The notes beneath the pieces were generated by a model that ran no database searches, was not told the DNA's origin, and saw only the letters and a program-made list of their open reading frames with translations. Source: Brachycybe producta (lineage: Eukaryota > Arthropoda > Diplopoda > Playtdesmida > Andrognathidae). From it: a stretch of DNA of 64,000 nucleotides. The position numbers were made by a program, and so were the translations under genes. Shown here in pieces: positions 1-51,400 of this stretch. The stretch spans positions 1,687,778-1,751,777 of the forward strand of contig JAUPFP010000023.1 in NCBI GenBank assembly GCA_036925085.1. Direction: 5' to 3'. How positions within the stretch are numbered: the stretch's first letter is position 1; the number at the start of each line of letters is the position of its first letter.

Positions 1-3000
1 ATTGGTGTTGCTTTCGTAATTATGACGAACATCAGGAATGGACATATTTCCAACATGGGTTCTTTGACTGTTACTGTTGGTAGTCATCAGACAATTATTA
101 CTGTCATTGTCACATTCTGCAGTATTATAGATATTTTCTTTTTTAATGACGATGATGTTCTGTGCGTTTTCATCCGTGTTTGAACTCTGAGGTTTTGGTG
201 TACGATTTTCGTTTGAATTTTCTGCATTTTCTGTTATATCTTCGTTTTTGGGAATCCTTATACTATGGCTACTAGTTCCGAAGTGGGAATTAACATCTCG
301 GTTCACTACACTGTTAGTCAGTTCCATATTATCACATTCCTTTTTCATTCCCATATTATAAAAACTTTGAGTAGGATTTACATTACGATTAGTAGTCGCG
401 GTATCTTCGTTTTTTGAATTATTTCCTAGGCCAGAACCACCTTCATTGGCTGAATTGTCGTGGTTATCAACATTAGAAACTTCAGGATTATTAACATTAT
501 CAGGATTGTTTACGTTTTCTCCATTGTTACTATCAGGATCACTTCGATTTCTCCCACCATTAGCGTTTGCTTCACCAGCAAAGTGGTCACTACTGTTTGA
601 ATTTCCAGGATTGTTAATATTCCCAACAATGTTTGAGTTTTCTGAACTTTCTTCACTGTTACTTCTATCATTAGGATTTTCAGGATTGTTTTGACTTACA
701 TTGCTTGGATTTTGATGATTTCCTGAATTGTTACGATTCCCAGAATTATTAGAATTACCATTGTCGTTTGGATTTCCACCACTGTTCGAGTTCCCAGGAT
801 TTTGATGATTTCCTCCATTAGGATTCCCAGAATTATTATTTCCACTCTTATTATTTCCTGGGTTCTGATTTCCACTATTGTTAGGGTTTCCTGTGTTATC
901 ATTTGCACCGTTGTTATTGTTCCCATTATTGTGATGGTTTTCTCCATCGTTAGGGTTTCCGTCGTTGTTAGAATTTTCAAGGTTGCGATTTTCCCCAATG
1001 TTGTTGTTTCCAGGATTGTGGTGATTCCCACCATTGTTAGGATTCCCAGGATTATGATAATTTCCTCCATTGTTAGGGTTCCCAGGATTTCCTTCATTGT
1101 TATCATTCCCAGGATAATTTGAATTCCCGCCATTGCCAGGATTTCCAGGATTATGAGGATTTCTTCCAGTATTTGGATTGTCAGGATTATGCGGATTTCC
1201 TCCATTGCCAGGATTGTGTGGATTTCCTCCGTTGCCAGGATTATGTGGATTTTGTCCATTGCCACGATTGTGTGGATTTCCTCCATTGTTTGGGTTGCCA
1301 GGATTGTGTGGATTTCCTCCATTGTTTGGGTTGCCAGGATTGTGTGGATTTCCTCCATTGTTCGGGTTGCTAGGATTGTGTGGATTTCCTCCACTGCCTG
1401 GGTTCCCAAGATATTGCAGACTTCCTCCACTGCCAGGATTGGGTGGATTTCTTCCATTGCCTGGGTTGTACAAAATACCTCCATTGTTTGGGTTCCGGAG
1501 ATTATGTTGAGTTTCTTCATTGCCTGGGTTCCCAGGATTGTGTGGATTCCCTCCATTGCCAGGATTGTGTGGATTTCCCCCATTGCCAGGATTGTGTGTA
1601 TTTCCCCCATTGCCAGGATTGTGTGTATTTCCCCCATTGTCATGATTGTGTGTATTTCCCCCATTGTCAGGATTGTGTGGATTTCCCCCATTGCCAGGAT
1701 TGTGTGGATTTCCTCCATTGCCAGGATTGTGTGTATTTCCCCTATTATCAGGATTGTGTGGATTTCCTCCATTGCCAGGATTGTGTGGATTTCTTCCATT
1801 GCCAGGATTGTGTGCATTTCCCCTATTATCAGGATTGTGTGGATTTTCTCCATTGCCGGGATTGTGTGTATTTCCTCCATTGCCGGGATTGTGTGTATTT
1901 CCTCCATTGCCGGGATTGTGTGGATTTCCTCCATTGCCGGGATTGTGTGGATTTCCTCCATTGCCGGGATTGTGTGGATTTCCTCCATTGCCGGGATTGT
2001 GTGGATTTCCTCCATTGCCGGGATTGTGTAGATTTCCTCCATTGCCGAGATTGTGTGGATTTCCTCCATTGCCGAGATTGTGTGGATTTCCTCCATTGCC
2101 GGGATTGTGTGGATTTCCTCCATTGCCGGGATTGTGTGGATTTCCTCCAGTGCCGGGATTGTGTGGATTTCCTCCATTGCCGGGATTGTGTGGATTTCCT
2201 CTATTGCCGGGATTGTGTGGATTTCCTCCATTGCCGGGATTGTGTGGATTTCCTCCATTGCCGGGATTGTGTGGATTTCCTCCATTGCCGGGATTGTGTG
2301 GATTTCCTCCGTTGCCGGGATTGTGTGGATTTTCTCCATTGCCGGGATTGTGTGGAGTTCCTCCATTGCCGGGATTGTGTGGAGCTCCCCCATTGCCGGG
2401 ATTGTGTGGAGTTCCCCCATTGCCGGGATTGTGTGGATTTCTTCCATTTCCCAGGTTGTGTGGATTTCCTCCATTACCAGGATTATGTGGAATTTCTTTA
2501 TTGCCTGAATTGTGTGTATTTCCTCCATTGCCAGGAGTATGTGGATTTCCTGTATTACCGGGATTGTGTGGATTTCTTACATTGCCAGGATTGTGTGGGT
2601 TTCCTCCATTGCCAAGATTGTGTGTATTTCCTCCGTTACCAGGATTATGTGGATTTTCTACATTGCCTGGATTGTGTGGATTTCCTCCATTGCCTGGAGT
2701 GCGTGGATTTCCACCATTGCCATTGTTATGTGGATTTGCTCCAATGTCAGGATTGTGTGGATTTCCCCCATTGCCAGGATTGTGTGGATTTCCCCCATTG
2801 CCAGGATTGTGTGGATTTCCCCCATTGCCAGGATTGTGTGGATTTCCCACATTGCCAGGATTGTGTGGATTTCCCACATTGCCAGGATTGTGTGGATTCC
2901 CCCCATTGCCAGGATTGTGTGGATTTCCTCCATTACCAGGATTATGTGAATTTTCTAGATTGTCTGGATTTCCTCCATTGCCAGGATTGCGTGGATTCCC

Positions 3001-5180
3001 CCCATTGCCAGGGTTGTGTGGATTCCCACCATTGCCAGAATTGTGTGGATTCCCCCCATTGCCAGGATTGTGTGGATTTTCTGCATTGCCTGGATTTCCA
3101 CCATTTCCAGGATTGTGTGAATTTCCTCCAATGCTAGGATTGTGTGGACTTCCTCCATTGCCAGAATTGTGTGGATTTCCTCCATTGCCAGAATTGTGTG
3201 GATTTCCTCCATTGCCAGGATTGTGTGGATTTCCTCCACTGCCAGGATTGTGTGGATTTCCTCCATTGCCAGGATTGTGTGGATTTCCTCCATTGCCAGG
3301 ATTGTGTGGATTTCCTCCATTGCCAGGATTGTGTGGATTTCCTCCATTGCCAGGATTGTGTGGATTTCCTCCAGTGCCAGGATTGTTTGGATTTCCTCCA
3401 GTGCCAGGATTGTGTGGATTTCCTCCATTGCCAGGATAGTGTGGATTTCCTCCATTGCCAGGATTGTGTTGGTTTCTACCATTGCCACTATTGTGTGGAT
3501 TTCCTCCATTGCCAGTATTGTGTCGATTCCCTCTATTGCCAGGATTGTGTGGATTTCCACCACTACCTGGGTTCACCAGGTATTGCAGACTTTCTCTATT
3601 GCCAGGATTGTTTGTGTTTCCAGCATTGCTTAGATTCCCTGAATTGTGAAAACTGCCTGCAAAGTTAAAATTCCCAGGACTGCGAGAATTTCCTCCATTA
3701 TTTGGGTTATGAGGATTTTCTCCAGTATTTCTAATCCCAAGATTGTGAAGATTTCCGTCACTGCCAGCATTTGCAGAATCATGAGGATTTCCTCCATTAT
3801 CAGGTAAATTTCCACTATTGTTAGCATTATTCGCATTTTCTTCATTGCTATGGTTACCAGGATTGTGAGTATTTCCGCCATTATTAGAATTGCCAGGATT
3901 GGGTTGCTGTTGTCCAATATTGGGATTTCCAGGATTATATTGATGTCCTCCAATGTTAGGATTTCCACCACTGTTTGGGTTCCCAAGATTATACTGATTT
4001 TCGCCATGATTGGGATTTGTTAGAATTTGATTTCCCTCATTGTTTAGACCACCGATATTGTGATAGCCACCACTATTTCCAGGATTATTATCTCCACTGT
4101 TGGTATTTCCAGCATTGTTATGAGGACTACTAGAATTGCCTGGATTACCAGGGTTTCCAACATACTGTAGATTTCCTCCATTTCCAGGATGAGTGTTGCC
4201 AAAATTATGTGGATTTCCTCCAATGTTTGGATTATTAAATAAATGAGAATGACTTCCATTGTTGGGATTTAAAGGGTGTCGTACAATTCCTGAATTGTGA
4301 AGAAGTCGCGGATTGTGAACATTTGTTTGATACATAGGGTTGTTGATGTTTGGTACATTAGCATTGCCAGGAATATATTGACTCCCTCCACTGTTGAGTG
4401 TACTCTGATTAGAAAACCCAGGCATTCTAGGATGACTTAAGTTTCCAGAAAAATGAACATTGCCAAGATTTCTTCCAATTGTAGGATTTCCGGGATTATT
4501 TGGTAGTCCCCCATGATGTTGCTGAATATCCTGAATATTTCCTCCAAAATGTGGACTTCCAAGAATGTGTGAATTATTATCTCCTTGGTGAACATGGCCA
4601 GGATTTGTGTGACTTCCAAGAGAGTATGCATTTCCAGAATTATGTGGATTTCTTCCATGTTGAAGGTTACTTCCATTTGGACTACTAGTTAATGGATTTC
4701 CAGGATGAAGTGGACTCCTATTGTACGGATTACCACCAGTAGGTGTCAGAGGAGTGCAAGGACTCCCTTCTCCTTGATGACTTTCCTCTATAGAATGTCT
4801 GCCACCTCCAGTCTGATCTACTACTGCTCTATCAGCAATGTCAAGAATACGTTCCACATTCAAATCTCCCACTTCCTGGATGTTTAAATGTGTTTGCGAA
4901 CTCTGTCGTCCCAAACTGTGACTCGAAGATGATGGACTTGCTTCAGTAGCAAGCATACGAGAGCTATCACCAGATGACGAATCTTGAAATGATGATGCAC
5001 TAAAGCGTGGACTGCTTGGAAGACTATGTTGGTGTGTACCAAAACCGCGACCCATTGAATCCATGCCACTGTGCATTGTCATCAAAGAAGGCGAACTGTT
5101 CATTTCGACATGACTCCCCGTTGATGTACTTGGTGATGGACTTTGCATTTTAATGCCCAGGGGTGTCTGCCTACCAATTT
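1..5180 (-). other. KMT2 exon 49: giant Gly/Asn-rich exon with 27-bp coding minisatellite
   Basis: After a TTTCAG acceptor at 5181-5186 the frame starting IGRQTPLGIKMQSPSPS contains no stop in any codon I read, through to position 1 (more than 1,725 codons). The frame was confirmed at both ends. The first ~450 nt encode an ordinary Ser-rich KMT2-like stretch (LNIQEVGDLNVERILDIADR). From about 4300 the protein becomes Gly/Asn/Pro/His-rich, and between about 3630 and 1150 it is a near-continuous tandem array of the nonapeptide PGNGGNPHN (DNA unit 27 bp). Below ~1150 it decays into Asn-rich non-repetitive sequence (NNPGNSNSSDHFAGEANANG). Because 27 is a multiple of 3, all six frames stay open; only this minus-strand frame joins the upstream exons. 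Confidence 0.85.
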
Positions 5181-8100
5181 CTGAAAACCATTTCATACCG
5201 ATTCAAAATTAAGATGCTTTATCAACAGCTGATTTTCGAACTCTGGTTATCCCGCCTTTCAGAAGAACAATATTAAATGATAAATTAAAAGTGCATTAGA
5301 AACTAGAATGGTAGCTGATACACTTAATAGTATTTTCATGTAAATTTTGAAAAATAAACTAAATTTATTGACAAAAATTTAAAAAAATATTGCCTTCTTT
5401 TTTGTTAGTTGTGTCATTTTCAAACTCACGTACACAGCTTATTTTAAAAGATAGCAACATAAAATACTCCAAAGTAATTGAGCTACTATTCTAGTTTCTA
5501 GCACACTTTCAAATTTCTTTAAATTTTACTTCCGAAATACAAAATAAGCAGAATTCGAGAGGCGTTTACACTTGAAAACCTGCTTAACGCTTATAAATTT
5601 AACACAAGCCATTACGGGACTTTACAAACATGCAATTGTTTATAACCAAAACAAATTCTCGTTTAATTGTCAATTTTAACGTTAAACGATTTCCAAAACA
5701 AGATTTTTCTTTTTATTGCAAATTTGCTATGCATTTAAACGTAAAATTCAAAGTAAGTTCAAGTTATAATTCATTAAAATGAAAAAAATTAATTACTTTT
5801 TAAAAAAAATTAACATACTTTTAAACTAATACTCGCACTAAAATAATGCTTTTGAAACTATACAACATCGAAATCATCCAAAGAAAGAAGTAACGACTCA
5901 CCAGAATGGCTGCAATTAGGCGATTGTTGCGAATATTGAGATGGTGACTGGCTGACACGTTGCTGCATCTGGCTCACTAGAGACACACCACTTCCAGAAC
6001 ACTGTTGTTGTTCAACTGACAGTTGCTTTCCAGAAAATCCTGAACAAAACCAAATAAATTAGAGTGAGATTCATATTTAAAATGAAATCAATTACTGTAT
6101 TAAGATGTTTTATGAACAGCTGATTTTTCTCTCTCTCTCTCCAGTCATTCTGCATTTTCAGGAGCAAATAGTCAAGAAAGATTAAAGTGTGTTAAAAACT
6201 AGAATGCCAAACTGAATCACTTTAATAGTATTTTCATGTTGATATCTTTCAAAACATACATTTTATGACAAAAATTAAAAAAATATCATCCACTTAAAGT
6301 TGGGTATTTTTCAAACTGACAGAAAACCCTTAAGAAGAAACTGCAAGTGTTTTAGAACTAGAAGATGAAATTTTCTTTTTTCACTTCAAGTTAAACATAA
6401 AAAGTTTATTTTTAAAAATATCAACATAAAATTACTCTTCAGTGATTGAGCCACTCTTTTAGTTTCTAAAACACTTTTAAAGTTTCTCTTAATTTTGCCA
6501 CTGAAAGACAGAATAACCAGAGTTCAAGAAGTGTTAACACTTAAAATAATTTAAAAATGTACCAGCAAAATGTTGTTGCTGAAGTTCTGAAGCATTCGGA
6601 TCAGCAAATCTCTGTCCAACACCTTGAACAAATGCTCGAGATAGAGGTTTAGAGCTCTGATCAGATGTCTTTCCACAAATTGGTCTAGGCCAACCTTGAC
6701 CTTGAGGAAATCGGTCTTCACGATAATTAAACTGTTGCTGAACACCACTGTTGTCTTGGTCTTCAAAATCTTGAATAAATTCAAAACTTATGTGATAAAA
6801 CAGAAAAACGAACAGCATACATTCAAATACAATAATTACCATCTTGGGTTCCAGGCTCATGTCCAGTTTGTTGAAAATGACGTCCGACTTGCTGAACACG
6901 CAACTCTCTATGTTGAAAGCTTTCGCTAAAAGGATTATTATCCTCCTGTAAAATGAATAAATAAAATTCTACATGTAGCAATCGCAAAAAACAATGTTAT
7001 CAGAAACCAGTTTCGTACCTGAGATACTTGCAAACCAGATGAACGAAGCATTTGCTGCTCTAGATTTGGATTCGGCATTCTAGGAGAAGCCTGTTGAAAT
7101 ATAGGCTGAGCGTGAGGAGAGTGTTGCATTAAAGGAGACGGAACTGGCCCCAAAGGCGAATGTTGCATCATCGGAGAAGGTGACTGTTGTCTCAATGGAG
7201 ATGGTGAAGGACCCAATGGTGATGGTGAAGGTCCCATATGAGACGGAGACATTAAAGGAGAAATTGGTGTTCCAGGTGCCTAAACAGAAAACAAAACAAA
7301 CAAAAAAAATTGTAGCATGACATTAACAATAAATCGACTATCAAAAAACATACACTCATCATCGGTGACTGTGAAGGCCCCATATTCGGCTGCGAAATTG
7401 ACATTTGTTGTGTGTTAGCTAAAATTTGCTGCTGCCTCTTCTGTTGTTTCATATGATATTCTTGAAAAAGCATGGAATGTTGCCGACTTTGTTTTCGAAC
7501 CTAACCAAAGAGGTTGAGTTACTTCCTTTCTACTCTATTTATAAGAACAGTGGAAACCGCTTTAACACAAAATTAAAGAAAATGGAATATTTTTTCTTGT
7601 TAATCGAATTTCATGATAAAAAATATTTTAAAAACGTATTTTATACATATTAATAGTAAAAACAAATTCTCCGAATATTTTTTTAACATTTAAAACTTGC
7701 ATCTTGGCTCCGCCTACTTTTTTTTTAAATTGGTAATTTTGGATTGCACATTTCACATGTATTATGTAGTGTTTATGTAGTTTTTATGTGTGTAATAATA
7801 TGTACTTAAGTAGGATGAAGAAAGAAATCGAATTCTAAAAATCAGGCCACTTGACTTCAAGAACAAAAAAGAGCTTTACAAGAAATACTAATCTCAAAGC
7901 GAATTTGGAAAATGAGGTCTTAAATATTTTTTTGTGTTCATGGTACTGAAATATTCCTGTGTTAACCGATACTTTCATGTTATCCGTTTCGTCTTAAACA
8001 AATTAAGATATATTGCAAACCATATTATGAGGAAAACGACTTAAAATAGATATCATGTCGTCCAGTTTTTCGTGTTATTCGATTTCGTGTTAAATGGTTT

Positions 8101-11100
8101 CCACTGTAATAAAAAATCACTAATTATTAACCTGTTCAAGTTGCTTTTGAAGTCCGGTTTGATCTCTCGTTATTCTCTCCAACTCTCTTGCATCTGGTTC
8201 TGACAACTGCTGCCCGTTCTTACGTAAATTGCGCTGCTTTGTGTTAAGCGACTTTCGTGTCTTGCGTAATTTTCCAACTTCAGCCTCAAAGAATTTTTGT
8301 TGATTAGAAAGAACATGCTGTTGCTGAAATAACCAATGCTCATAGAGTTGTTGCTGCTGACGCTCAGCGTCTGTTACTGGATCTGCTGGAGGAGTAGGTG
8401 GAGGAGGAAGACTTGTGATGGGAAACGGTGGACGAGGAGACTGCAAAAGAGCTGAAAGACAAAAAATATCAATATCAATAAATATAATTCATAAAATTCA
8501 CATGTGTAACTCGTTATTTAACTCAAACCTGGATGCATTCCGGAATCTTGAGGAGTAACAAGTCTTTGTGACCCAAACATCAACTGATTCAAATTTGATT
8601 GTGGTGACAGACCCGGTCGTACAGAAAATCCAACACCAGTCGACGAATCAGGATGGCCAATTGACATCGGCAAACCAGAGTTATTTAAAAGACTTTGCGC
8701 CGGTGATGATGCTGCCCTAATCGACTGTGAACCCTGAATTGGAGGTTGCAAAGGAAGCATTCCTTGCACAGGCACATTAGAAGCAGGTGGAGACATGCTT
8801 ACAGGAGGACCTGCCGTTCCTAGAACGTCTGCCTTAAGCTTCTCAAAGTCGATATCACTAAGAAGACTATCGTCGCCTTGTGACTGGCCCAGTATTCCAT
8901 GCTGTTGCTGTTGTCGTCGCTGTTCTTGCTTCTCCTGTTCCAACAGGTCCGCTAGAAGATGCCTTTGTTCAGGTACATTGATAGGTCTGTTCGGTGGAAT
9001 ATTGGAACCGATCGTATGAGGAGGTCTATGACCAGACATGGACATCATGGGTTTTCCAGCATAAACTCTAGAATGCATCGGAACACGCACAACGCCTGAA
9101 ACTGCTTGATAAGGCGGTGGAGGTCTAACTCCCATATTTGGATACGGAGGAGGTTTAACCATTCTCTGTGGATTCGCACCCATTGCTATTTGCTGACGAA
9201 GATCTGCCGGCATCGAAACCGGAGGTTGTCCAAACTGTCCCATGACCATCGGACGTTGAGGATTACCCATTTGCAGCACTTTTGGCGATGGCATAGGTTC
9301 CTGCATTGCAAACGGCTGCATCGGACCCATTGATGACACGATGGGAATGTTCTCGATAGGAATCGCTCCCGTTGAGGACATTACATCGATACTAGCTACA
9401 CCTCCAGTATTCTGTCCAATATTACTTAAGGGTTTCACGTCCTTTTCTTCTGTTTTGACCACAATATTAGATTCAAGGCTGTCATCCTCAAATATATCAC
9501 TATTTTTAAGTTCTTCAGCCTTCTCCAGGTCCCTCCTTTGACTAAATTCCAGGAATTTTGCCTACAGTAAAAAATTAAATTTCAAAATAAAACTTTGTTA
9601 ATATTTTTTAAAAAATTTAAGTACTAAAATAAATAAAAGTATTAAATTATCAAAAAAATCTTCAGACAATAACATAATAAATTAAGAAGCAAACCTGAAA
9701 ATCAGTCGTTCCGAGACCAATTGAATTTCCAGATTGTTGTTTTACACTGGGTGAAGAATTTCTCTTTCCAGACTGCTCCGCTTGAGAATTATCTACAAGC
9801 TCTGTCTTAACGTCCGTCATTTTGTCCGGACTACCAATCTTGCCGCCTTTTTCATTATCATCATCTATATCTTCATCCTTATCATCAAGATCTAAATTTT
9901 CATCCAAAATGTTGGTCTTTTTGCCATCGCCAACAATGTCGTGATCAAGCTCTGGATCGGCATATTCCAGAATATTAAAATCATTTCCAAGTCCTGAAAA
10001 ATGGATAAAAACGTTAGCATCAATAAACAAAAAGAAAATTAAAACGCAATTAAACATACCGAGAAGTTCGTCATCATCCAAATCGTCTTCCGGTCCTCCA
10101 ACTTTATCCATATGCGATTCTTTCTCCAACTTTTCCAACTCCTCGGCAACTGTACCAGCAGAATTTGCATCGTCACCTTCGAGAGACACATCAGGCAGTT
10201 CAGTTCCCTGCTGTGAAGACTCTCCACCAATATCACTATCCAATTCGGAAGGCAAAAGCTGATCTTGTTCGACACCCTGCCGTGGTGATTGACTTTCTAA
10301 AAGTTGCTGTTGTTGATGGCTCATAACAGCTGTGAAATTAAACAAAACAAATATTGAAGATCCCTGTAAACTAAATAGGCTAGAGAGAGTTATTTAGGGG
10401 CGCATAAACACGCAAACGTATTTTTCAGAGAAAACATTATGATAAACTTCTGATCGTTTGCGAAACTAGAACAGTATAAGATTATACCAAACGATTTTTA
10501 ATGGCAATATATTAAAAGGTTAATATTTTATAGCAGTTTTAAAAAGATTCTATTTCACGTTTTTGGCACAAAAACCAACAAAAATTTCACAAAAATTAAT
10601 TTTGCCTTTTTCAAAATTTGTTTTTAGATATAATAACGAAAAAAAACTTTTATTTTATTAATGTTTGCATAAAAAACAGTAGCAAAGTAAGCATCTTGCG
10701 TCACCAAAACGCAACATGATTTTGAAGCCCCCTATAAAAATCTAGCGCGTGAAACTTACCCATTATGTAAACAATATGATAGAACACTACCAAACTTCAC
10801 TACTATAATATTATATATTTTGTTTAACAATTAATAAAATCTAGATTTCTTTTGGGTTTTTTATGGCGCTGCAATACAGAGGCTCCAAAGACGCGGTTCT
10901 TACGCCAGTGCGGTGAAAACCCTACATATTTGTGGAACCGCAGTAGTGCATTCAATTATCCAGCCACCTTAACTATGATCAATCTACAAAAACATGCCAC
11001 AAACCTAGATGTGCTTGTTGCTGTTGTTGACCCATGTTTGGCATGATTCTTGTTTGCCCCATTCCCATGGGCCTCACCAGCGCAGTCGGACTCGGAGGCT

Positions 11101-14100: not shown

Positions 14101-17100
14101 ATGGGAGTAGCTAGCATTTCGCTCTCAGAAACAGGGAGTGGGACAGGTGGGACTGGACATAGATTCTGCGTTGGCGGCGCAGGAGCGGGGGATGTAGTGC
14201 CCTGTTTGGGGCGCTTCCCCAATTTAGGTGCTGTGGTTGTGGCGGCAGCGGCGGCAGAGTTTCCGCTCTCCTTCATCTGAACACAAGGATGGGACGAGAA
14301 AGAATTCAGGAAACGTGGCACGTATTTTATGAACAAACCACAGAAAAAATAATTCCCCCAAAATATATATTCCCCTTTAGTAAAAAAACAAAGAACAATG
14401 GGTAACATACACAGTGCAAAACGAACAAATTCAACCAAAACACATATATGCATTCAAAATAAAAATTCACAAAAACCTGAAACCCAAGCAATATTCAAGA
14501 AAGTCAAGCTGCATGCAATTACAAGAAAACAATTACAATAATTGTATACGATGTCAGTTAAGAGTCTAGACACTTCAGTTTTACATGCCAGAGACATTTT
14601 GCCGTTCCAAAGTTACTTAAATTGCTCTAATAACCTAACAGCAATTTAAACCTTCATTAAATTATTCCGTTTCTTGAAGAAAACATTAAGGAACACACAA
14701 ATTTCTAAAACTGAAAGATGGTCCTGAAGAACGAAAGGAAGTTAGCAAAATAGACCTTTTCGAAGTCAGCGACTTTTAACATGGGTCAAGCAAATCAGCA
14801 TAATTCCAAAGGTTTTAAAATAAAACCTCAGTTGAATATTGCAATCAGTTGACGTTAAAACATGGCCACAACATTCAAGTAGCGATTGCAACTTAAATTA
14901 TTGTTCAATACAGTTTAAAGAACACTACGGCGTATAACGCAGCCAGTGCGCGCGGGAGTGTCTAGGCTCCTAAGGCGATGTTGTGCAATCAGCTGAATGC
15001 TGCTTAACCTTATCAAATAACGTTTCAGAGGTTAGGCAACAAAATAGCACATCCATATTTTAGCATCATCTCTACACGATGCCAACATTTCGAAAAAATG
15101 AAAATACGACACCACATAACCGGAAAAAAAACTGTCCCAAAACCGTATAGCAGTTCCGGGAGGTGCAGTTACCCTGCCGTTCGCTCATTCAAAATAATAA
15201 TAAACACCAACCACAACCAACAAAAACGGATATTTCAAAATGCACATGCCAAAAGTAACAACAGAAACTGAAGAAATTAAAAAAAATCCTTCTTCCGAGG
15301 GTAAAATAAACGCTTCAAAATAAATTAGAAGTTGAAAAAACTTCGGAAAATCGAGAATCTTTTCGGTAGAATACCGGGGTCAATTATCCATAAATCACCA
15401 ACAAGTGCAACCCAACAAAACCAGTCGGCATTCAAAAGGAGTGGAAGAAAACAGGATGCAATGATAAGATGAAGCTTTAATTACCTGTTGTGCCTTCTGC
15501 ATACGAGAAGCCGCTCTATTCTCACGAGCTTTTTGCTGAAACGACAAATGACGAAAACATGAAAGGGAAATCAAAAAAAAAGGGGGAAAAACCTGCATTC
15601 GAATACAAACCACATATTGAGTTCTTTTCTCTGACGGTAAACCACGCCATATCTTTGCAATCTGCTTTGCTCTGTCCGCCCAAACTACAAAAATGGCATT
15701 AATCCAAATGAAAATACATCAAAGACCCTTTAAGTTATACAATGACCACGTACGTGGATGATCATTTTTCAATTCAGGATGATTCATATTTGCATAAAGA
15801 ACAGCAGATATCGTAGCACAAGGCCCTAACGTTTCATCGCTCTCCCATTTCATGACACTTCTTTGATTGTAAGACGGTGACTCCTGTTCGGGTTCGGGCG
15901 GCAACCAAGGACTCGGCGGTGGCTCCGAGAAACCGGGACTAAACTGAGGACTGCTGATCGTTGAATTAAATGAACTATCGTAAATATTATTACTTAATTA
16001 AAAATAGAATGAAGGGAAACCACTAACCTGCTGTATTCTGATGGATATGGAGAAGGAGGTGGAACGCTAAAGGGCGAAGACATGGGAATACTAGGAGGAA
16101 TCGCAGCGCGTTGAATGGGAGCAGGAAGACCAGATGGCGGCATAGGAGAAGCTTGTATAATTCCAGCAGAACCTATACAAAAGTTCTGATCGGGAACTGA
16201 CGTCGAAAACAAAAAAAAAACATTGGAAGCAATGAATAATATTTAATTTCAAGTTTCTTAAGTGTACCAGTTTCGGTCAAGTCGTTTGTTAAAACGCCTT
16301 TGAAAAGATCTTCTACTTCTTTACCATCCATTTGCGGAAGCCCTAAACAGGTAGACATAACGTGTTAAAAACAATGGCCATAATACTAGTTGAATAATGT
16401 AAATAACAGAAAGGGGGCAGTATTTTTACCAGTATCCGAAACCATTGTGTCCAAATTGAAGTGTGAACTTAGAATGTCAGTCAATGGATCGTCCTTGTTC
16501 AAAGAATCGTCTTTAATATGGCTCGAATCACAAGGATGGCACATATCTTCGTTCGTAAGTGCACTGTCAGTGATGTCATCCAGACCTAATCAAACAAAAG
16601 AACAACAGTTGTACTCCATAATGGCAAATGCGAGTAAAAAAAAAAAAAAGAGCAACCATTACTAACATTCACTTTTCGTTAGGTCGTCGCTTTCTGTCAT
16701 AAGCATGTTAACCAGTTCATCATCTTGAGGAAGGTCTTGCGGAAGGGGAAGTATGTCCTTCAACGCATCGGCATCTCCGAGATCTTCATCATCCGTCACC
16801 TTAAAACGAGAAAAGGTAGCTTTAAACACAAGCTAATCGATTAATATATAGTTTAGTATTAGCAGTGCATACTTTAGGTGAAGTCGGCAGGTCCTTCTGC
16901 AAGACTGCCGGTTGTAAAGAGGTTGACGCTTCTCCAACCAATTCTTCGGCAAAGGCACTGGCCTTATCGTTTAATTGCATCAGAGGAGATGTAGGTGATT
17001 TTACGTCATCGTCAGAGGCAACGGTCTCTAATTTTACATCATGATCCTTGCTGGTATCCAAGAGCGACTTCCCGAAAAAAGCTTCCTAAAAATTGAATAA

Positions 17101-19120: not shown

Positions 19121-19153
<33 letters not shown>

Positions 19154-22100
19154 AACAAAAATAGTTGTAGTTGTACCCTTGACAAAACAAAATCGTCTTT
19201 TGCCGAACAAAGAACAATCTTGTTTTCCAATCCTGGTTCGTCGTCCAATTTTCCTTGTGACGTTTCCATCTGAGAAGTCTTAAAATGTCAATATCGTTGC
19301 TACTACAAAACTTAACAAATTACTACCTGAAAAACTGGACTTGAACCAACGAGTTGTTTTAATTTTGGCTTTGGCCCTCGTCGCTTCCCATAATCTCCCA
19401 CTTTGACCCTTCGTTTCAGCCCAACAAATTTAGTACCTCCCTAAAAATATACTTGAAACATGAGCCTAGACCTCCTTAAAATCTCACATAAGAAGAAATA
19501 AATCTCATACTCTCGGCCTTCCCATGGCAATCTTTTTCTTAGCCGCTATCTTTCCCGAATTAGGAACCGGTTGTGCTGTTGATATACAAAAGGATTTCCC
19601 TGCGATTGGCGACAAATCTTCAAAGTTAAAATTAGATGTTCCTGATAACTGCTGTAGTTGTTGAGTGCTCTGCAATTTATAACGTAACGATTAAAAATTT
19701 ACCATATACAATATAGTAATAAATTTAACTAAGCATTACTCGTTCGAAAGCTTGAAGATCGATATCCCACACTACAAACGGAGTCATCATTAAGAGCTAA
19801 TAGTGACTCGTGAGGAGTTACAAGAGGGCTACACTCTGATATACTGCACTCATCTCTGCCAATAGATGATGAACCTGCAGAGAAAAATAAAACACACCAT
19901 TTTAACTCTCTTCTTTTATTTTCCAAAAAAAAACCCTTCTCAAACAATTACTTTTTCCAACTGGTGAAGGCCATAAGAGATCTTTAGAGTCAGGAGTCCG
20001 TGCTAACACATACCGAGGACCATTCTTGCCACCAGACGCATGGCAAGGTGGACACATATAATCAACGTTTGAATCTCCTTCCCGTTGTTGCTTAAGAGAT
20101 TCATCGCACTTTTCATGCACAAATCTAAACATTGTGAATGAAGAAATTTATATTCTTTGATTCAAATAACTAAAAACAAAACAAAAACACTTACTTTTTG
20201 CACACGGAGCATTGAACCAATTTCCTTCTGAGCAAAATGTCGATAAGCTCGGGCCACATAACGGACAAGCGAGACCCTTGTTCCTCTGCTGATAACAACT
20301 ATCGCAAACGCTGTAGTTCATATGCCACCTGGAACTTATTCCACTTCCAGGTGTTCTTGAGCCACAGTCACCACAAATGCGACAGTTCTGTAAACAGCAA
20401 AAAAAAGAAGGCGGCTTGAAATAAATCAAAGTAATAAAAACAAATTTCATCTTTCCAAACCTTGCATTTCCAACCATTCTTTGGAATAGATGTCATGACT
20501 GGCTTTAGGCAATACGTATGATATCCTTTATCACAAGTGTCACAAACTAGCATCTTATTGTCATCTCCAGGTTGCCTAACCGAATTACAACACCAACATT
20601 CACAAGAATGTAGAGGAAAAAATAAAATAAAATTAGACAAACACCGTTTAAAAAAAACAGGTTCACAGTTTAATATACCGTGTAACAAACCTGCAGGTCT
20701 GGCATATCTTGCAGTCGGGACACTGCCAACCGGCTCGAACAACTGGATTCACACCGACTATTGGATCTAAGCAACAGCCGTGATAATGATGACCGCAACT
20801 CGTACAAAATAGAAGCTCGGAAATATTTCCCGGAGTGTCACAAACTATGCAATTTGCTTCACTTTCCGCTAGAGAAAAATATAGAACAAATGCATCAAAT
20901 AATAAAATAAAGATTGTGCATGAAAGACAAACAATTATTATGCATTGTATTGTGTTTAAATGCATTCAATTAAAATCAACAACATGAATGATAATGAAAT
21001 GAAATTGAGAGTGTGACTGCGGAGACTTGCAAAAAAAAAAAAACAATAATTTGAAAAATGCAGACAAACAAATATAAAAGCAAAGCAAATTAAAAGCACG
21101 TTTTTTTAAATATCAAAAACAAGCAAAGATGAAAAGAAAAACAAATCAACAAGAGTATTAAATACGACACAAGTGATGTATTCGTGAACGGAACCTAAAA
21201 AAGGTGCCGTGATTAATATATAATTAACGAAGTTTGTTTAAGAAAAATTTAATGTCTACCATATCTAGCATCAAAGATGCGACTCTGCGACGTTCGAAGT
21301 TGGTCGATCTTTCGTACCTCGTCTATAAAGTGGACGCAAACAGCTTACTTTAACTGACTCACGTAAAACTTAAATGATGACCCATAACACTAAAAGTTCT
21401 ATAACGCAATACAAGATGTAAGCAAAGAAATATAACTTTAAAGCAAAATTTCTTCATTGATACGTTGCTATTTCTATCGTTATATTTAGACGTTCCAGTG
21501 AATCCGTTAGTGTTAGGTTTGTGCTTTTGCACGTATATACTACGTGCTGAAATGGCAACGGTTTTCTCACAAATCAGCTTTAAATATTCTGTGGCACTTA
21601 CCAATTGGCTCAATTGTGTGTTTTACTTGAAAATGGTCTCTAACATAACAATGTAAAGGCACAAAAGCCATACTTAAGTTCCCTCAATGAAAACAAACGC
21701 CAAAAAGAAGCTGTTTGGCAGCTTGAACAGCATTGAGCGCAAACTTTCAGCTTTCAGCCAAAAAATTAAGCAACGTAACATAAACATTAAGGCCAAAAGT
21801 TTCCATAAAACACAAACACGGTACCAACACGTTTTGAGTGCACTATGATAACATATGAATGCCACATTAGCAATAACAATCAGTATAACCAAAATGCACA
21901 AATTGCATACGCTATAAAAATGTGCATAAACTTGCATAATTTCAGAAAGAAATTTTAGAAATTATTTCTAAAACGAAATAGTTTTGATTTTACATTCTAC
22001 CGTATTGCTGTTGACGTCTGTAACTAGTAATTGCTCCAGACTTTTAATTAACTGTGATTTTAATTCACAATTTGCTTACATACTTTTGCATTTATGCATA

Positions 22101-24568
22101 AACGTTTTGGCCTTAATGGTTATTAAAGAAAGTTGAATGGATGTAAGTACTAGGATCATCGTTTGTTTGCAAAACAAGATTAACAAAGGTAATTACCAAT
22201 TGACGGTGCTAAATGATGATGTTGAGGACAAAGCAAAGACATCGTTTTAATGTCCTGAAATTACAATTAACATTCACAAAATAAATATTAAGAATAAAAG
22301 ACATAACTATAACTAATCGTGAATTCAAAGAAGAAGAAAAACTTCGACTCACTTGAAATGCACCCGAACTAGCAGCACAAGGATAATGATACACCTTATT
22401 GCACTTTGGTCCGCGGCATTGAATCGTGGCACCAAACCGCCGACAGTAACTGCATTTCTAGAGAGAGAGGGAAAATTCTATAAAAAACGCCAAAAGAAAA
22501 CAAAGCAGTCGTAAGATGCAAGTTACTTGTGACATTCCATTAACTACGGCCTTATCAACACTTATAAGAACATAATCTTCTGTCTGACAAACACCGTCCG
22601 ACCAGGCTGCACAACAATGATGCGCATTTAAATGCCCTGTGACAAAAAAAAACGATTAAAGTTGACATGATAAAAACAATTTGTATATTCTCGATATAAC
22701 ACACCGGTACTCTCGAATAAAATTCCAACATCTGGCTCTTCGGCATATCCGACAATACTCAGCTCGTCGATAGGTTGCGAGTTAGAATCATCATCAGATC
22801 GACGTGGAGATTTGCTCCGTTCCCTTCAAATAAAAGTGCGGTCATAAACAGAAAGCACAAATTTTAAGAAGTATGCTAAACGTTGATATAGAACCTGGAA
22901 CGACCCTTGTGACGTCGAAAGGAGAGAACCTTCGGACTTTTTTCGAGTTGACCCTCCTTCTCGTTTTCACTAGAACCACGTCTTGCCTTGGGACTTTTAC
23001 GAAACGGATTAAAACCAGGCGTGGGATCAAACCTAGTCATTTCTCCTTGACCAAGTAAGCTTTTCTCGCCCAGGTTACAAAAGGCGCAAGTCTTAACTGC
23101 CCTGAAAATAAAACGAAAATGTAAAAAAAGAGCACCAGATAAGAAAAGACGCAAAACTGAAATGATGTCAAACCAGAGTTCGGGGATTGTTTCGTCAGAG
23201 GCAGATCTTTCAAAAGACATCGCACTCGAAATACTATTATCGGAATCCATAGCTGAAAGAAGATCAAAATAAGTTATATTCGAAGCATGTTATTGCTTCT
23301 TTCCTAGAAAATAATAATAACCCAAATCAACTGCGTCACTCTTCTCTTGATTGTCTGGTAATTGAGAGATAAGCGCAACAGCCGGTTCACCAATCTTTGG
23401 TATATCACTCATTTGCATAGATAAACCGGGAAATTGAATGTGTTGACGGTGATGAGGATGAATACGATCACCGGGAAAATGCCGTCTTCGACCACGAGGT
23501 CGTCCTGTACTACGTAGAAAGGGGCTACTGGCACTGAAGAAAAAATAAACAAACAAAAAAATACAATTACAATCACATTTTTGTGACTTTGCTGTGAATT
23601 TAGTAAATTCTGCGGATAAAACAATCAATTTGGGTTTTCACCTAACATACGAGAATTAAAATGCAATACAATTAAATTAACAAACATATATTTAAAAAAG
23701 TAATTTTTCTCTTGGCACAAATTGAAAGCCTTTTTAGAAACTAGAATGGTTGATGCAACCATTCTAGTTTCTAAAAAGGCTTTCAATTTGTCTTAAGAAA
23801 CTAGTCATGTTCATTTATTCAAAATAATCGCCAAATCTGTACTTGTAAAGGCCAACTTTAAAAATAATTCAAAAGAAAAATAATTAGAAACCTACAAAAC
23901 TGGTCTTTTCCGTTGTATCGGGACACTACCATCCTTTCTAGGACGTCCAGGACCCCTCTTCTGCACAATCGGACCCTGAGATGACGTAAAAGCAGACAAG
24001 TTGGAACACAAAGAAGCAGAATCTAAAATGATGGGCAAAGACGACGAAGAAAGCGAAACGGGAGCCTCAAAGCAAACGGCTTGCAAAGAAGAACAAGAGT
24101 TCGAAGCAACACTCGCTTCACTCTGTTCAGTCAGCGACGATGACGAAGAAGATGAAGACGAACAAGAAACGGAAGATCGCAAAGCTTCAGAACGCGGCGA
24201 AGGAGCTAGAACATCAAACAAATATGATTAAATACTTTCCAAAAACTGAGTTTTATATCGATTTTTTTTCGAAATTCACCTGCTGTAGACGCAAAATCGA
24301 CACCTCCTGCAACTCCGATTGGACTACAGACGACAGATTCTGAATGAATCAAACCACGTCTAAAGTTCGAAGAACTTGAAGTGGCACCTGTGTCTTTTAG
24401 AAACTCTTCCTGCTGTTCTATCGTCAGTTTAGACAGTATAAAATGTTGTTCTTCTGTCCTTTGATCTCCTTCGTCCTTTTCTCCTCCGGTGTCAGCAAAA
24501 ATATCGACAATTTCGTCGCCAATTTTGGTAGTTTGCATAGAACAACCTTGCGACTCTACTTTGTCCAT
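1..24568 (-). CDS. KMT2C/D-like: KMT2C/D (MLL3/4) homologue, N-terminal ~5,200 codons, 3' end outside window
   Basis: Histone H3K4 methyltransferase of the MLL3/4 (COMPASS-like) class, a nuclear enhancer co-activator. I could join 49 coding exons, start ATG at 24568: 24280-24568, 23896-24205, 23322-23533, 23174-23252, 22895-23101, 22705-22823, 22527-22636, 22353-22457, 22197-22254, 20691-20868, 20461-20575, 20195-20387, 19952-20124, 19740-19874, 19511-19669, 19327-19440, 19177-19278, 18959-19063, 18698-18879, 18334-18498, 17970-18256, 17712-17906, 17527-17640, 17377-17448, 17169-17317, 16873-17085, 16673-16799, 16430-16585, 16268-16342, 16028-16196, 15754-15953, 15611-15684, 15485-15535, 13934-14276, 13367-13659, 11968-13288, 11771-11896, 11496-11707, 11005-11407, 10060-10329, 9695-9993, 8529-9561, 8132-8451, 7354-7500, 7019-7279, 6840-6945, 6563-6769, 5902-6039, 1-5180. 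Phases agree at every junction except around exons 12 and 14, where single extra bases must be assumed. Order (extended PHD, PHD clusters, HMG box, Pro/Gln-rich part, coiled coil) is diagnostic of the family. FYRN, FYRC and SET are not in view, so catalysis is inferred. Confidence 0.9.
1150..3630 (-). repeat. 27-bp coding minisatellite, roughly 85-90 units
   Basis: Plus-strand unit ATTGTGTGGATTTCCTCCAT followed by TGCCAGG (27 bp), repeated head-to-tail across about 2.4 kb; the unit number is estimated from span divided by 27, not counted. Subfamilies are visible: units with GCCGGG dominate about 1850-2410, units with GCCAGG dominate on both sides (about 1560-1830 and 2580-3560). Homogeneous blocks of this type indicate local amplification by unequal exchange or slippage. 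Minus-strand translation is PGNGGNPHN. Confidence 0.95.
5211..5588. mobile_element. Palindromic MITE, family B, in KMT2 intron 48
   Basis: Long terminal inverted repeats. The left arm includes AACAGCTGATTTTCGAACTC and GAAACTAGAATGGTAGCTGA; the right arm includes TTGAGCTACTATTCTAGTTT and AGAATTCGAGAGGCGTT. The family consensus starts TTAAGATG and the two halves are near-complements around an AT-rich centre with GTCATTTTCAAACT. No ORF; non-autonomous. Confidence 0.8.
6101..6556. mobile_element. Palindromic MITE, family B, in KMT2 intron 47
   Basis: Same family as 5211-5588. It starts TAAGATGTTTTATGAACAGC, has GTTAAAAACTAGAATGCCAA in the left arm, and the complementary CTCTTTTAGTTTCTAAAACA and CAGAGTTCAAGAAGTGTTAA in the right arm. 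It fills most of the intron; its right end lies within about ten bases of the exon 47 donor. Confidence 0.8.
7547..8107. mobile_element. MITE with CAGTGGAAAC termini (family C), KMT2 intron 43
   Basis: The left end ACAGTGGAAACCGCTTTAAC is answered at the right end by GTGTTAAATGGTTTCCACTG, an inverted repeat of about 25 bp with few mismatches. Interior is AT-rich without coding potential. The CAGTGG start is typical of mariner/pogo-like elements; the superfamily assignment is inference. Related copies at 39622-40520 and 42725-42865. Confidence 0.7.
8529..14276 (-). other. KMT2 exons 34-42: Pro/Gln-rich region with DPYAQ..TPRP repeats
   Basis: Low-complexity coding sequence rich in Pro, Gln, Met and Ser. 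Exons 35-36 repeat DPYA(Q/C)MP.TPRP-like units (DPYAQMPGTPRPMSG, DPYAQQPMTPHMP, DPYAQMPSTPRPQM), a hallmark of this segment in vertebrate KMT2C/D. Exon 36 is 1,321 nt and ends in a Gln/Arg-rich helix (RQQLRDLLQKQQMKKQIEQH). Exon 39 has two short polyQ runs. Exons 40-41 are strongly acidic (DLDDDELLG, DLDDKDEDIDDDNEKG). Exon 42 starts AKFLEFSQRRDLEKAEELK, a conserved family motif. Such regions bind co-activators in relatives; no catalytic motif is visible here. Confidence 0.82.
10330..11004. other. 675-bp KMT2 intron 39, no gene
   Basis: AT-rich with two GC-richer patches (around 10390-10425 and 10865-10945). I see no ORF of interest and no clear terminal repeats, although the patches contain CACGC/GCGTG-like words that may be the edges of an old element. 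Confidence 0.4.
14277..15484. other. 1.2-kb KMT2 intron 33, no gene
   Basis: Lies between the 51-nt exon that closes the HMG box and exon 34. Mostly AT-rich; one GC-richer patch at 14925-15000. No coding or RNA signal recognised. Confidence 0.5.
15485..17906 (-). other. KMT2 exons 22-33: linker and HMG box
   Basis: Exons 22-25 include the conserved patch FVDGVYLSEMGMDQIKSL, a lysine-rich KPKRKRKIKKKRTLEDSFP and the GVGGF motif. Exons 26-29 are acidic and Ser-rich. Exons 31-33 encode the HMG box (about residues 1610-1664): HPLWADRAKQIAKIWRGLP, then EKRTQYVQKARENRAASR, ending MQKAQQ. In KMT2C/D this HMG box sits after the second PHD cluster and contributes to DNA/chromatin contact. Exon 33 is only 51 nt (17 codons), in phase on both sides. 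Confidence 0.85.
17970..19669 (-). other. KMT2 exons 15-21: second PHD cluster
   Basis: Exons 15-17 are basic linkers with AT-hook-like MGRPR and GKRRGPKPKLK. Exon 18 (DMCIMCGSFGKGEEGRL, then YHPYCVSIK) is a PHD finger nearly identical in pattern to vertebrate KMT2C PHD4. Exon 19 carries the next finger (CTVCEGCGQPHDEGRLLLC, DDCDISYHIYCL). Exons 20-21 carry the last (CVVCLHCGTTTPG, CPVCQ, CIDCDRWLHALC), all near residues 885-1060. In vertebrate MLL4 this cluster reads histone H4 tails; that role is inferred here. Exon 21 continues into a Pro-run linker. The intron between exons 17 and 18 contains a 32-bp homopolymeric G tract on the plus strand. Confidence 0.88.
19121..19152. repeat. Homopolymer tract of 32 G
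   Basis: Uninterrupted G run on the plus strand (C on the coding strand) in the intron between KMT2 exons 17 and 18. The length is probably unstable or imprecise in the assembly. Confidence 0.95.
19740..20868 (-). other. KMT2 exons 10-14: first PHD cluster, with apparent frameshifts
   Basis: Exon 10 encodes a PHD finger starting CIVCDTPGNISELLFC and including HHYHGCCL. Exon 11 continues into a second finger (QPGDDNKMLVCDTCDKGYH). Exon 12 starts the third (CRICGDCGSRTPGSG, then CPLCG). Within exon 12 the family pattern then continues in a second frame (AYRHFAQKE) and afterwards in a third (LVQCSVCKK), which joins in phase to exon 13 (FVHEKCDES..CPPC). This fits one extra C near 20251-20253 and one extra A near 20222-20227. 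Exon 14 likewise opens in one frame (SSSIGRDECS) but must finish in another (DIDLQAFER) to join exon 15, which fits one extra G in a GGG run near 19763. All three are +1 changes in homopolymers. Sequencing consensus error is the simplest reading; a true pseudogene is unlikely because the other 47 exons are clean. Confidence 0.75.
20869..22196. other. 1.3-kb KMT2 intron 9, no gene
   Basis: Separates the extended PHD from the first PHD cluster. It contains short ORFs on both strands without codon or domain support. No transposon termini recognised. Confidence 0.5.
22197..24568 (-). other. KMT2 exons 1-9: acidic N-terminus, AT-hook, extended PHD finger 1
   Basis: Exon 1 begins MDKVESQGCSMQTTKIGDE and is acidic. 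Exon 2 is Ser-rich and ends with an AT-hook-like KRGPGRPRKDG; exon 3 carries a second basic GRPRGRRRHFPGD patch, both suited to minor-groove DNA contact. Exons 5-9 (about residues 300-495) form the extended PHD: a pre-PHD zinc knuckle beginning CAFCNLGEKSLLGQGE, then LNAHHCCAAWSDGV, then the PHD proper KCSYCRRFGATIQC..KCNKVYHYPCA. This C2HC plus PHD order matches the first extended PHD of vertebrate KMT2C/D. Intron 2 holds a perfect 35-bp hairpin at 23718-23790. The 1.3-kb intron after exon 9 contains no gene I can see. Confidence 0.85.
23718..23790. repeat. Perfect 35-bp inverted repeat with 3-nt loop
   Basis: The left arm CAAATTGAAAGCC..GGTTG is followed by ATG and then by its exact complement ending GGCTTTCAATTTG. 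The arm contains the family B core AGAAACTAGAATGGT, so this is a minimal fold-back derivative of that MITE. It lies in KMT2 intron 2. Confidence 0.95.
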
Positions 24569-27039: not shown

Positions 27040-29439
<2,400 letters not shown>

Positions 29440-29508
29440 TTTTAAAATTCAATTTGTTCAAAGTGTAAATATTTAATAAACTTTTGAATAACTTGAAGGA
29501 ATATTTCT

Positions 29509-29517
29509 CCTTTTATA
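29509..29517 (-). promoter_or_regulatory. TATA box of the trypsin-like gene
   Basis: TATAAAAGG on the minus strand, about 70 nt upstream of the ATG at 29439, a normal distance for a short leader. It suggests a focused, tissue-specific promoter. Confidence 0.65.
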
Positions 29518-29519
29518 CA

Positions 29520-30388
29520 ATTTTAAACTTTTATTGTGCTACTTAATTAATCTCAATCTTTTTCTTAGATGTCATGAAAAGAATCGATTGAGTCTAATCA
29601 TAGTTGAAGACGTTTGGATGTAAAAATGGGGAATCTATTAAAATAAACATTGATTATAAAAGTTATAACAACCTGGTTCAATTGCACAAAATTTAGATTA
29701 TTTTATTGATATAAATTTCTTGACGTATCATCAAATATAAGGTCAGTTATTTAAAAAATAGTCTAAAATAATTAATTTCAACGAATAAAAATAGTTTTTG
29801 GTGGTAATGGTAATAGTTAGGCATCAAATTGATCTATATCAGCTTATCAGAGGTTCTTAAACTGGGGTTGCCATAAAAATGTTTGTAACGATCGACTTAA
29901 GCGAGGAGCAAAATATATTTCGTTTCTATTCCAATTTATTTAAATGTAAATTTCATATAGTTTCAATTTCATTTTCGATTTCAACTTCAATTACACTTTG
30001 ACTAAATTTCAATTTGTTTAAATTTCAATTCAATGCATTTTCAAACATTCCACAAACAAGCCAAATATTGCGGTTCTCACTTCAATAAAAAACACCGATC
30101 TTTCATATAGTAAGAATTCATTGTGAAGCAATGAAAAACTTTTTGTAAGCTAATAATAATAAGTTTTACCCATTATTTGTAAAGAAATTTTTCCCGGAAA
30201 ATCTTTTCGATGAAAAGGAGAGGGGAGTAGTCAGACTGCTAAAGTTTAAGAACCTCTGATCTATATTGATTCTTCATTATTTTGTGGAATTAATTATTGT
30301 AGAATATTTTCTAAAAAATGAAATTATAATTCTTTTTTTTATTAATAGTCGCTTTTCATTATTCTAAAATGGTTCAATCAATCAGATT
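29520..30388. other. Spacer between the two proteases
   Basis: AT-rich and without genes. A related word pair (CAGAGGTTCTTAAACTGGGG at about 29848 and AAAGTTTAAGAACCTCTGAT at about 30241) forms a terminal inverted repeat of about 15 bp around a 400-bp segment, characteristic of a hAT-like MITE with CAGAGGTTCTTAAAC ends (about 29848-30260). Confidence 0.5.
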
Positions 30389-48400: not shown

Positions 48401-51400
48401 CGAATCTTTTTCAACAGCGGAGTGCAAATACCCTGAGCAATAGTAAGCTTCTCTTGTCGAGTAATACCATATTCCTGTCAAGCCGCAAAACAACAAATAA
48501 ATCAACTGGTTACATTTCGTTACAAACCCCTTAACAATGAACCTGAGGAACAACAATGTCCGCTAAAGCTTTAGCATAAGTATACAATTCGATTGCATGT
48601 TCGTACTGCAACTTATGCTGATTATGTTGCAAATCATATTTGATGCAGTCATAAATATCAGGAACTTTGCTAATGTCAAAGTTGCCAGTTTTTAGTTTAA
48701 AATCCTTTTCTAATTTTCCCCATCGTCTCTGCATTAAGTCCCATGTTTCGCCATGATAAAGAACAGCACCTGTTTATGACAATAATGGTACAAACTTAGT
48801 ATAACTAAGGTGGGTTTAAAGTGTAAACAGCCCTCGAACTCTGATGCTTCTGTCTTTCGGAAGCAAATACAAATCTTGAAAGTGTTTAACTTAAGAGTAT
48901 TTTCATGTTTATCTTTTAAAATAAGCTTTTTATTTAAGTTTGAGAATCGGTTAAAATTTAAACTATTTTCTTTATTTTTGCCTACAAAAATTTACTTTGA
49001 AAGAGACCAACATCAAAATACTAGTAACTCAGCTACCGTTCTAGTCTCTAATACACTTTCAACTTCTCCTTTAGTGTTGCTCCTGAAGCGAAGAATAATC
49101 AAGAGTTCAGAAATCCGCTATTTATGAAAGACCTTTAAAAATGTACCTTGGGTTCGCCGATCTTCTTGTTTTTTCTTTATCAACTCCATAAGGTTTTGCA
49201 TCAACCCGTGAATGTGTTGATAAGCCTTAAAAGGATTCTTTATGAAATTTAGAGCATTTTGTATGGATGTTGCACCAGTCGGATTGAGAGCATCGTGATC
49301 TTCACTGGTAAAGTTCTGATCTCGTTGCATGGCATCGTGAAGACGAACTTTAACCCTTAAACGAAAACGATCACAAAAATAATTTTGAATGTTGTGAATA
49401 CAAATAAAACTGAATAATCATTAAATATATGTTGTACATGTTTTGGTATTTGCTCGAGTCGTGATCATTGTCTAACAGTCCATTTGTATTGGCAGACTTC
49501 ACCATTTGAACTAAAATTGGAGTCAGTTCGCCTTCTAATGCAAGTAAACCCTTGATAAAAAAAAGTATAAAGATTTTTTACAACAGTAACAGATGAGACC
49601 TACATAAAGTCTAAGGGCTGATGCGGCTATTGTATGAAAAAAGCCCGTGGGCTTCATGCGTTTTCAGGGCTTTGTGGGCCTGGTCGGCTTCTTAAAAAGC
49701 CCACTGATATAGGCCACGGTACACTTGTCCCCTTTGGAAAGCCAAATTTCTTATTTTAATATGATCATTTTTAAAAGAAAATAATGCGTGTTTGAGCCAC
49801 TGTTCTACATGCTATTAGTTAAAGGCTGTTCTTTTTGGTGACTCGTTACACTCGCTGGTATTTAAAAGAGATTTGGGTGTATTCAAGACTGTTTTCATAT
49901 TTAACCTTCATCACTTTCTCTCCTCATATGAAACAGTACTGTGGACACCCATGCATATGCTTGATAAATCTCATAGAACTGGTGCATTTTCTGGGGCTAG
50001 TAGGCTTTGTGTGTCTGATCACTGGTGGGCCTCGTAAGCTTTCTGGGCCTTCTGACCTTGGTGGGCTGGTATAACGTTTTGTGAACTGGGCTGGGCCTCA
50101 ATTATTTTACAAAATGTAGGTCTCTAGATGAGAGAATTGTGAAAAATGAAAAGAAAATGCTATTCGAGATAATATAAGTACTTTGGCAAAGGCAGCTGCA
50201 GTCATCTGAACACGACCTTCATCCGAAGCATATATTTTTAAGTCATGACGAAAAGTACTGTGTAACCTTAATAGCCCCAAACCCTGAGTTCCAGCATATT
50301 CACCTATTTTTCAGTCGGTTTAAAAAGACCAGAAGAAAAGAGAAAAGACAAAAGAAAAAAAAATGAAGGCCATAAATTACAAATGTGATCATTTCAAAGT
50401 TTGTTCTAATTGGAAATGCAAAAAATAAAATCAAACATGTTAGTTACAGAGTTCTTTAAGTGGTTCAGTGCACCTATGCCAAATATCTATAAAAACAAAC
50501 AAAAAAACAGAAAATAAAAGGCATGCAGTGTGTGTGTGTGTGAATGAAGTGAATCAGGGAAAATAGAAGAAATAATGAAGATGTACTCAAAAATTAAATT
50601 ATAGCCAACATGCAACTTACGAGCATATTACCATTTTATAAGAATTAGTTGCAATTGTGTAAATGAAGTCAAGAAGTAATTAGTAATTGCTCTTATAATT
50701 GTGTTTAATTTAATTAATAAATTCTATTAATTTGTGTGTTGAAAAGCCGTGCAAAATGTACTCGTACAAAATTCAAGATTCATTTCTTACACTTCTTCAT
50801 TTTCATCACTTGGATTAATAAGTGTTATTCGTGTTAGATATAACCCGATAAATTGAATAATAACGAATGTTTACAAAATGATCCAAAAATAATAATTTAG
50901 CGTTCCCTCACAACGGTCTCATAGCACACACAGACCAAAAAACTAAAACGACCATCGTTTTTAAACGTTTTCCACTTTTGTGATATGTATTTTTTATAAT
51001 TTTGAAAAATAATTAGATAATAAAACTTTCTGTCGTCCAATTTATATCTAATAATTTGTTTGTAAGGGTCATGTAGTGATTTTTGTTTTATGAAACTTAA
51101 ATTTTCATTCAACCAAAGAAGAGTACAGTAGAATCTCGGAATATCTGATCTAAATAACAACAATAAAGCAGTTAGGGCTTTGACTTTTAGTGAACAAATT
51201 GGACTGCACAAAGTGACAAAAAAGACTGTGTTGTGGTTGACAATGTATGACAATGTGACGGACTGCAGTTGCCGAACAGTTTTTGTTTTTCCATGGACCA
51301 CTTGTGAATCCCCAGTTGTGTCTCTACGACAGAGCAACAATAACAAAAAGTGTTTCCTCTTCATTGTTCATTTTGTCCGAATGGCTACTGAGTAACTGAG

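Follow-up and report, generated by a model that had tools for sequence, protein, structure and literature searches.

The window analysed here, a stretch of 64,000 nucleotides from the millipede Brachycybe producta (C23:1687778-1751777, in a genome of 295 Mb and 442 contigs), contains a long tandem array of nonapeptides in the open frame of a KMT2C/D gene. Judged from their sequences, the PHD fingers and the SET domain appear to belong to one continuous gene, which would extend over window positions 1-24583 and the downstream loci L009 and L010. Its features, from the N-terminal to the C-terminal end, are as follows.

22353 to 22457, minus strand: part of an extended PHD (zf-HC5HC2H, PF13771, 4.7e-09; ORF 22209-22457, residues 1-35)
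20711 to 20851, minus strand: PHD finger (PF00628, 5.9e-08; ORF 20663-20965)
20461 to 20598, minus strand: PHD finger (PF00628, 2e-09; ORF 20368-20748)
5902 to 6039, minus strand: exon preceding the array exon, 138 bp, ending in phase 1
1 to 5180, minus strand: in-window part of the array exon, phase 1 in and phase 0 out, running on to L009:8156
3565 to 4761, minus strand: N-terminal diverged N/G-rich flank with a weak three-residue period
1018 to 3573, minus strand: nonapeptide array NPG-NGG-NPH, 90 units, in the open frame of KMT2C/D
1863 to 2430, minus strand: homogenised sub-block in which the first Pro codon is CCC (GCCGGG on the plus strand); unit starts 2430-1863, with one more at 2565
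402 to 1179, minus strand: C-terminal diverged N/G-rich flank
L009:1645-2010, downstream: extended PHD preceding FYR-SET (KMT2D chain, 9.1e-35; zf-HC5HC2H_2)
L010:9389-9649, downstream: FYRC, preceding SET (PF05965, 6.1e-12), matched also at C23:1677169-1677312
L010:8535-8867 and 8354-8629, downstream: SET, two exons (KMT2C 5.4e-14, KMT2D 4.4e-24; Pfam SET)

Gene identity and surroundings

An earlier note on this DNA had assigned the gene to KMT2C/D, and the extended PHD, FYRC and SET exons outside the window bear this out: their best matches among solved structures are KMT2C/2D, with the SET exons matching KMT2C and KMT2D ahead of KMT2A (2.7e-20). Both the gene identity and the coding array are held as firm. 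The PHD cluster of the N-terminal half (20461-22457) is represented by two fingers and a partial extended PHD in an incomplete survey, and a candidate HMG-box ORF at 15395-15718 matched no Pfam family. KMT2C/D is split into Lpt and Trr in Drosophila, whereas here it seems unsplit. A run of 32 G at 19121-19152 lies inside the gene and is probably intronic.

Elsewhere on the minus strand of the window are exons of a trypsin-type serine protease (27040-30643, two with Pfam Trypsin matches) and of a branch 2 histidine phosphatase (48531-52274, one of two just under the cut-off), which we take to be perhaps of PPIP5K type. As for the assembly at large, COX1 of the mitochondrial contig, C442, fits the invertebrate mitochondrial code best (judged by eye at conserved places). 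Further COX1-like stretches on the large contigs C1 (12697416-12698753) and C17 (4027703-4029047) are probably nuclear copies of mitochondrial DNA. Among the 14 contig ends that were read, one carries a TTAGG array, at the start of C3. This repeat and the mitochondrial code both point to an arthropod.

A single long exon encodes the array

The array exon is 7,025 bp long (acceptor 5181/5180, donor L009:8156) with phases that fit both neighbours, in agreement with the earlier description of a single exon of more than 5.1 kb that stays open to the window edge. Read from 5202, its frame stays open across the edge into L009, for 2,360 codons in all, and the join was confirmed by a locus spanning the edge. 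Splicing 6039-5902 to the array exon and to 150 bases of the next exon (from L009:8080) gave 2,437 codons free of stops; when the array exon was omitted from the spliced frame, stops appeared. Long stretches of the array are also open in four other frames, so openness alone is weak evidence. Within the exon there is one donor-like site scoring at least 8/9, at 699, downstream of the array, and none upstream of it; three acceptor-like sites with at least 13/17 pyrimidines lie further down in L009. A further intron from 699 into L009 is possible, and the array would stay in place.

Strictly repetitive DNA occupies 1177-3562, which TRF reads as a 54-bp repeat, along with a 27-bp array at 1532-3562 (75.9 copies, 88% matches). 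Compared with NPGNGGNPH, the open frame contains 31 nonamers at 9/9, 63 at 8/9 or better and 80 at 7/9 or better; in 200 residue shuffles, matches of at least 7/9 averaged 0.14, with a maximum of 2. Ninety units match at 5/9 or better in the core register, with no stop in frame, and the claim of about 90 units of a 27-bp PGNGGNPHN repeat therefore stands. The same note had predicted some 800 additional Asn/Gly-rich residues; the core comprises 795, including 250 Asn, 226 Gly, 147 Pro and 80 His, with 3 Tyr, 4 Gln and 30 Lys, Arg, Asp or Glu. Among the matches listed in a literature search, nothing was to the point on such an array.

Triplet architecture, flanks and homogenisation

Three features go beyond the earlier note: a three-residue architecture, older N/G-rich flanks and, as described below, a similar nonapeptide in HCF. 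Asn is the first residue in 244 of 265 core triplets, while 146 of 147 Pro occupy the second place and 79 of 80 His the third. When units were defined on DNA, 77 of the 90 gaps between them were zero, ten were of 9 bp, two of 18 bp and one of 42 bp, such that 12 of the 13 nonzero gaps measure 9 or 18 bp. Taken together, the placing of Asn, Pro and His and these gaps indicate that the array is built in steps of one three-residue triplet, three of which form the unit NPG-NGG-NPH.

Both flanks show a weak three-residue period with register shifts, and their counts of NPG, PGN and GNP exceed those of all 2,000 shuffles. NPH is also in excess in the N-terminal flank (its count was reached in 13 of 2,000 shuffles); in the C-terminal flank it is not (583 of 2,000). 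This triplet excess in diverged sequence suggests that the array peptide predates its present homogenised DNA. Used as a query, the N-terminal flank matched only itself. Within the array, similarity is highest between neighbouring units (0.867 at lag 1, 0.824 at lag 40), 64 of the 90 units are distinct, and CCC units are clustered, with none of 5,000 shuffles producing so few runs, as expected from the block homogenisation of unit subfamilies previously proposed.

A second array in HCF

Searching the genome with the array, as DNA and as protein, led to C14:2966032-2967000, within a gene that its predicted domains identify as HCF.

C14, upstream of the array: Kelch_HCF exons (PF13854, four exons over the cut-off with neighbours)
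L013:5725-4454 (G000 C14:2966032-2967000): HCF array exon, 1,272 bp, phase 1 at both ends, much of it filled by the array
L013:3307-3585, downstream of the array: C-terminal fn3 (PF00041, 26.1 bits, cut-off 25)

All Kelch_HCF matches over the cut-off are on C14; a single weak match on C46 falls under it. The array comprises 25 units at 6/9 or better to NPGNPGNPH. Its exon is open when joined to its neighbours, and a stop lies inside the following stretch, where the end of the next exon is unset. With phase 1 at both ends, this exon could be left out and the frame would be kept.

The pattern NPGNxGNP occurs 53 times in the 295-Mb genome, 38 times in KMT2C/D and 15 times in HCF, and nowhere else; its reversed control gave no matches. 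The looser NPGNxxNP gave 78 matches, 74 in these two genes and 4 elsewhere, equal to the 4 of its reversed control. The protein search listed 23 places, with both arrays (on both strands) among them. Five further loci read in frame (L019, L020, L024, L026 and L027) all proved to be other repeats, and the places left unread (on C31, C20, C39 and C7, and second places on C52, C1 and C3) contain no NPGNxGNP. L019 (C44) is a long array of SFTPSSGV-type repeats in a protein that probably has a signal peptide, and L020 (C22) is a perfect short-unit array with several frames open. A prokaryotic or viral source was considered and rejected, NPGNxGNPHNP being found in one stretch of genome_contigs (Rhizobium nepotum) and in none of viral_contigs.

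The HCF and KMT2C/D units share the 27-bp period, eight of nine residues and the position of the NPH triplet, and DNA alignments between the arrays reach 66-73% identity. Consensus third positions agree at two of the eight common residues (three if the tied HCF Pro codon is taken as CCA), where three are expected under equal codon use. In-register codon agreement was 0.439, which ranks 4 of 24 when codons are permuted within like residues, the permutations averaging 0.400. As this is no better than chance, recent DNA copying between the arrays is unlikely, which leaves convergence or a common origin long ago. The simplicity of the triplet makes chance convergence easier, but the placing of NPH must coincide too. 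The same peptide in different codons hints at selection on the peptide itself.

Synonymous bias

Differences between units favour synonymous sites in both arrays. For KMT2C/D, the ratio of nonsynonymous to synonymous differences over expectation, a measure that compares units of common ancestry, was 0.38 for 86 units chosen at 6/9 and 0.44 for 91 chosen at 4/9, both sets being picked by peptide match; with 91 units selected purely by their DNA it was again 0.44, and with the 65 distinct units 0.50. Four other frames gave 1.1-2.0. The antisense frame with a common wobble position was also low (0.51-0.67). In the 25 HCF units the ratio was 0.16; the frame corresponding to that antisense frame gave 0.40, yet its consensus has a stop in each unit. 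Protein-level constraint on the array is thus likely.

Composition and predicted structure

The suggestion in the earlier note that the added sequence is condensate-prone, unlike its account of identity, exon, residue count and homogenisation, finds no support in composition: the 795 core residues include 3 Tyr, 4 Gln and 30 that are charged, a make-up closer to spacer than to sticker. Amyloid should also be discouraged, since almost every triplet contains Pro or Gly. AlphaFold2, run on a single sequence of 189 core residues, predicted no structure (pLDDT 42.9), a result compatible with disorder though no proof of it. Neither the start of the array exon (E up to 1) nor 101 repeat residues (E up to 0.01) matched a solved structure.

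The array shares a three-residue period with the Gly-X-Y of collagen, and the HCF array exceeds the Pfam Collagen cut-off (42.3 versus 27.2 bits); the KMT2C/D array frame has no Pfam match. However, the fixed residue here is Asn, and Gly is missing from the third place in one third of the triplets of both consensus units, where His replaces it once per nonapeptide. Since His interrupts the register of Gly in each of the two units, we rejected a collagen-like triple helix. NANP-type repeats, which are short-unit Asn/Pro coding minisatellites, resemble the array in having a short tandem Asn/Pro unit, but the unit differs and the protein here is a nuclear chromatin protein.

With its low-complexity, probably disordered region the protein resembles vertebrate KMT2D (MLL4), whose condensation is described as needing its disordered region (PMC10423695). 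Human KMT2D is described as having polyQ tracts with prion-like prediction (PMC8386614), whereas Gln tracts are absent from the core here and the array is an Asn/Gly/Pro/His repeat of period nine. The PRO repeats of HCF-1, which one study presents as vertebrate only and coded by a single large exon (PMC4840301), are likewise lineage-limited HCF repeats in one large exon, but unrelated to the nonapeptide. From that account, repeats seem to have arisen in HCF on more than one occasion.

Discussion

We consider it probable, at roughly 0.6, that the KMT2C/D array is translated and selected at the peptide level as a long disordered linker, with a composition that is functional in the chromatin machinery of this lineage. 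Unequal exchange and slippage in 9-bp steps would have driven the growth and turnover of a 27-bp coding minisatellite, while selection preserved the peptide and its NPG-NGG-NPH register of three residues. The resulting disordered linker would be about 800 residues long, or about 1,400 when the older flanks are counted, and would connect the N-terminal half, which bears the PHD fingers, with the catalytic ePHD-FYRC-SET end. Its plainest role would be that of a long soluble leash, perhaps with weak like-with-like contacts. Because the same peptide recurs in independent codons in HCF, a cofactor of H3K4 methylation, the composition probably has a job in chromatin machinery. Of these elements, the frame, the gene identity, the synonymous bias and the confinement of the motif to two genes are observed, whereas selection as opposed to drift, disorder, and the leash and contact roles are deduced.

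Counting against this reading are the lack of NPH enrichment in the C-terminal flank, the low ratio of the antisense frame, and the fact that the products of both genes are large and of a repeat-tolerant type. The arrays might be low-complexity expansions grown by slippage and limited by frame and solubility, the match between units being coincidental. The unit consists of simple triplets of 9 bp, the genome is rich in tandem-repeat arrays (the five others read among them), and the pathway link between KMT2C/D and HCF was spotted after the search rather than predicted. Nevertheless, mere tolerance accounts poorly for a synonymous bias in both arrays, for a motif limited to two genes of related function, and for an odd NPH triplet that is placed alike in both and enriched in the older N-terminal KMT2C/D flank, and we regard it as possible but unlikely. 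The common period, residues and DNA alignments could instead reflect ectopic exchange that copied one array into the other gene; the chance-level codon agreement makes such a transfer improbable, although an ancient one with later codon turnover is conceivable. That the array is missing from the mature protein, being spliced out or an assembly artefact, is a very slight prospect. The basis of this work is one assembly, in which long arrays may be mis-sized, and the donor-like site at 699 with its acceptor-like partners in L009 would permit an intron, though one that leaves the array in. Frame, phases and codon bias speak against absence, as does the want of an upstream donor-like site in the exon, and the proportion of distinct units argues against wholesale duplication by assembly.

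The selected linker might have a further function, which we hold as a minority view and consider rather doubtful: a shared repeat "address", by which the KMT2C/D and HCF arrays would make like-with-like contacts and so join otherwise separate complexes. MLL4 is described as binding the PR-DUB complex via ASXL proteins, with HCF1 named as a PR-DUB subunit (PMC11161652). HCF1 is assigned to the SET1 and MLL1/2 complexes (PMC3953348, PMC5870349), which are said to explain its genomic sites almost fully (PMC6173865); that PMC3953348 and PMC6173865 list it with SET1 and MLL1/2, and not MLL3/4, counts against a direct partnership. If true, the shared address would be a lineage-specific, length-tunable connector, in which the protein is kept while its DNA turns over, and it is testable.

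Enhancer regulators have disordered regions that are difficult to test, since such regions align poorly. The present pair of functionally related proteins, with one nonapeptide that is absent elsewhere by motif search and written in different codons, constitutes a natural replicate. If selection made the arrays match, the function of the peptide could be deleted, swapped and measured, and copy number would give an enhancer methyltransferase a natural dial for its length.
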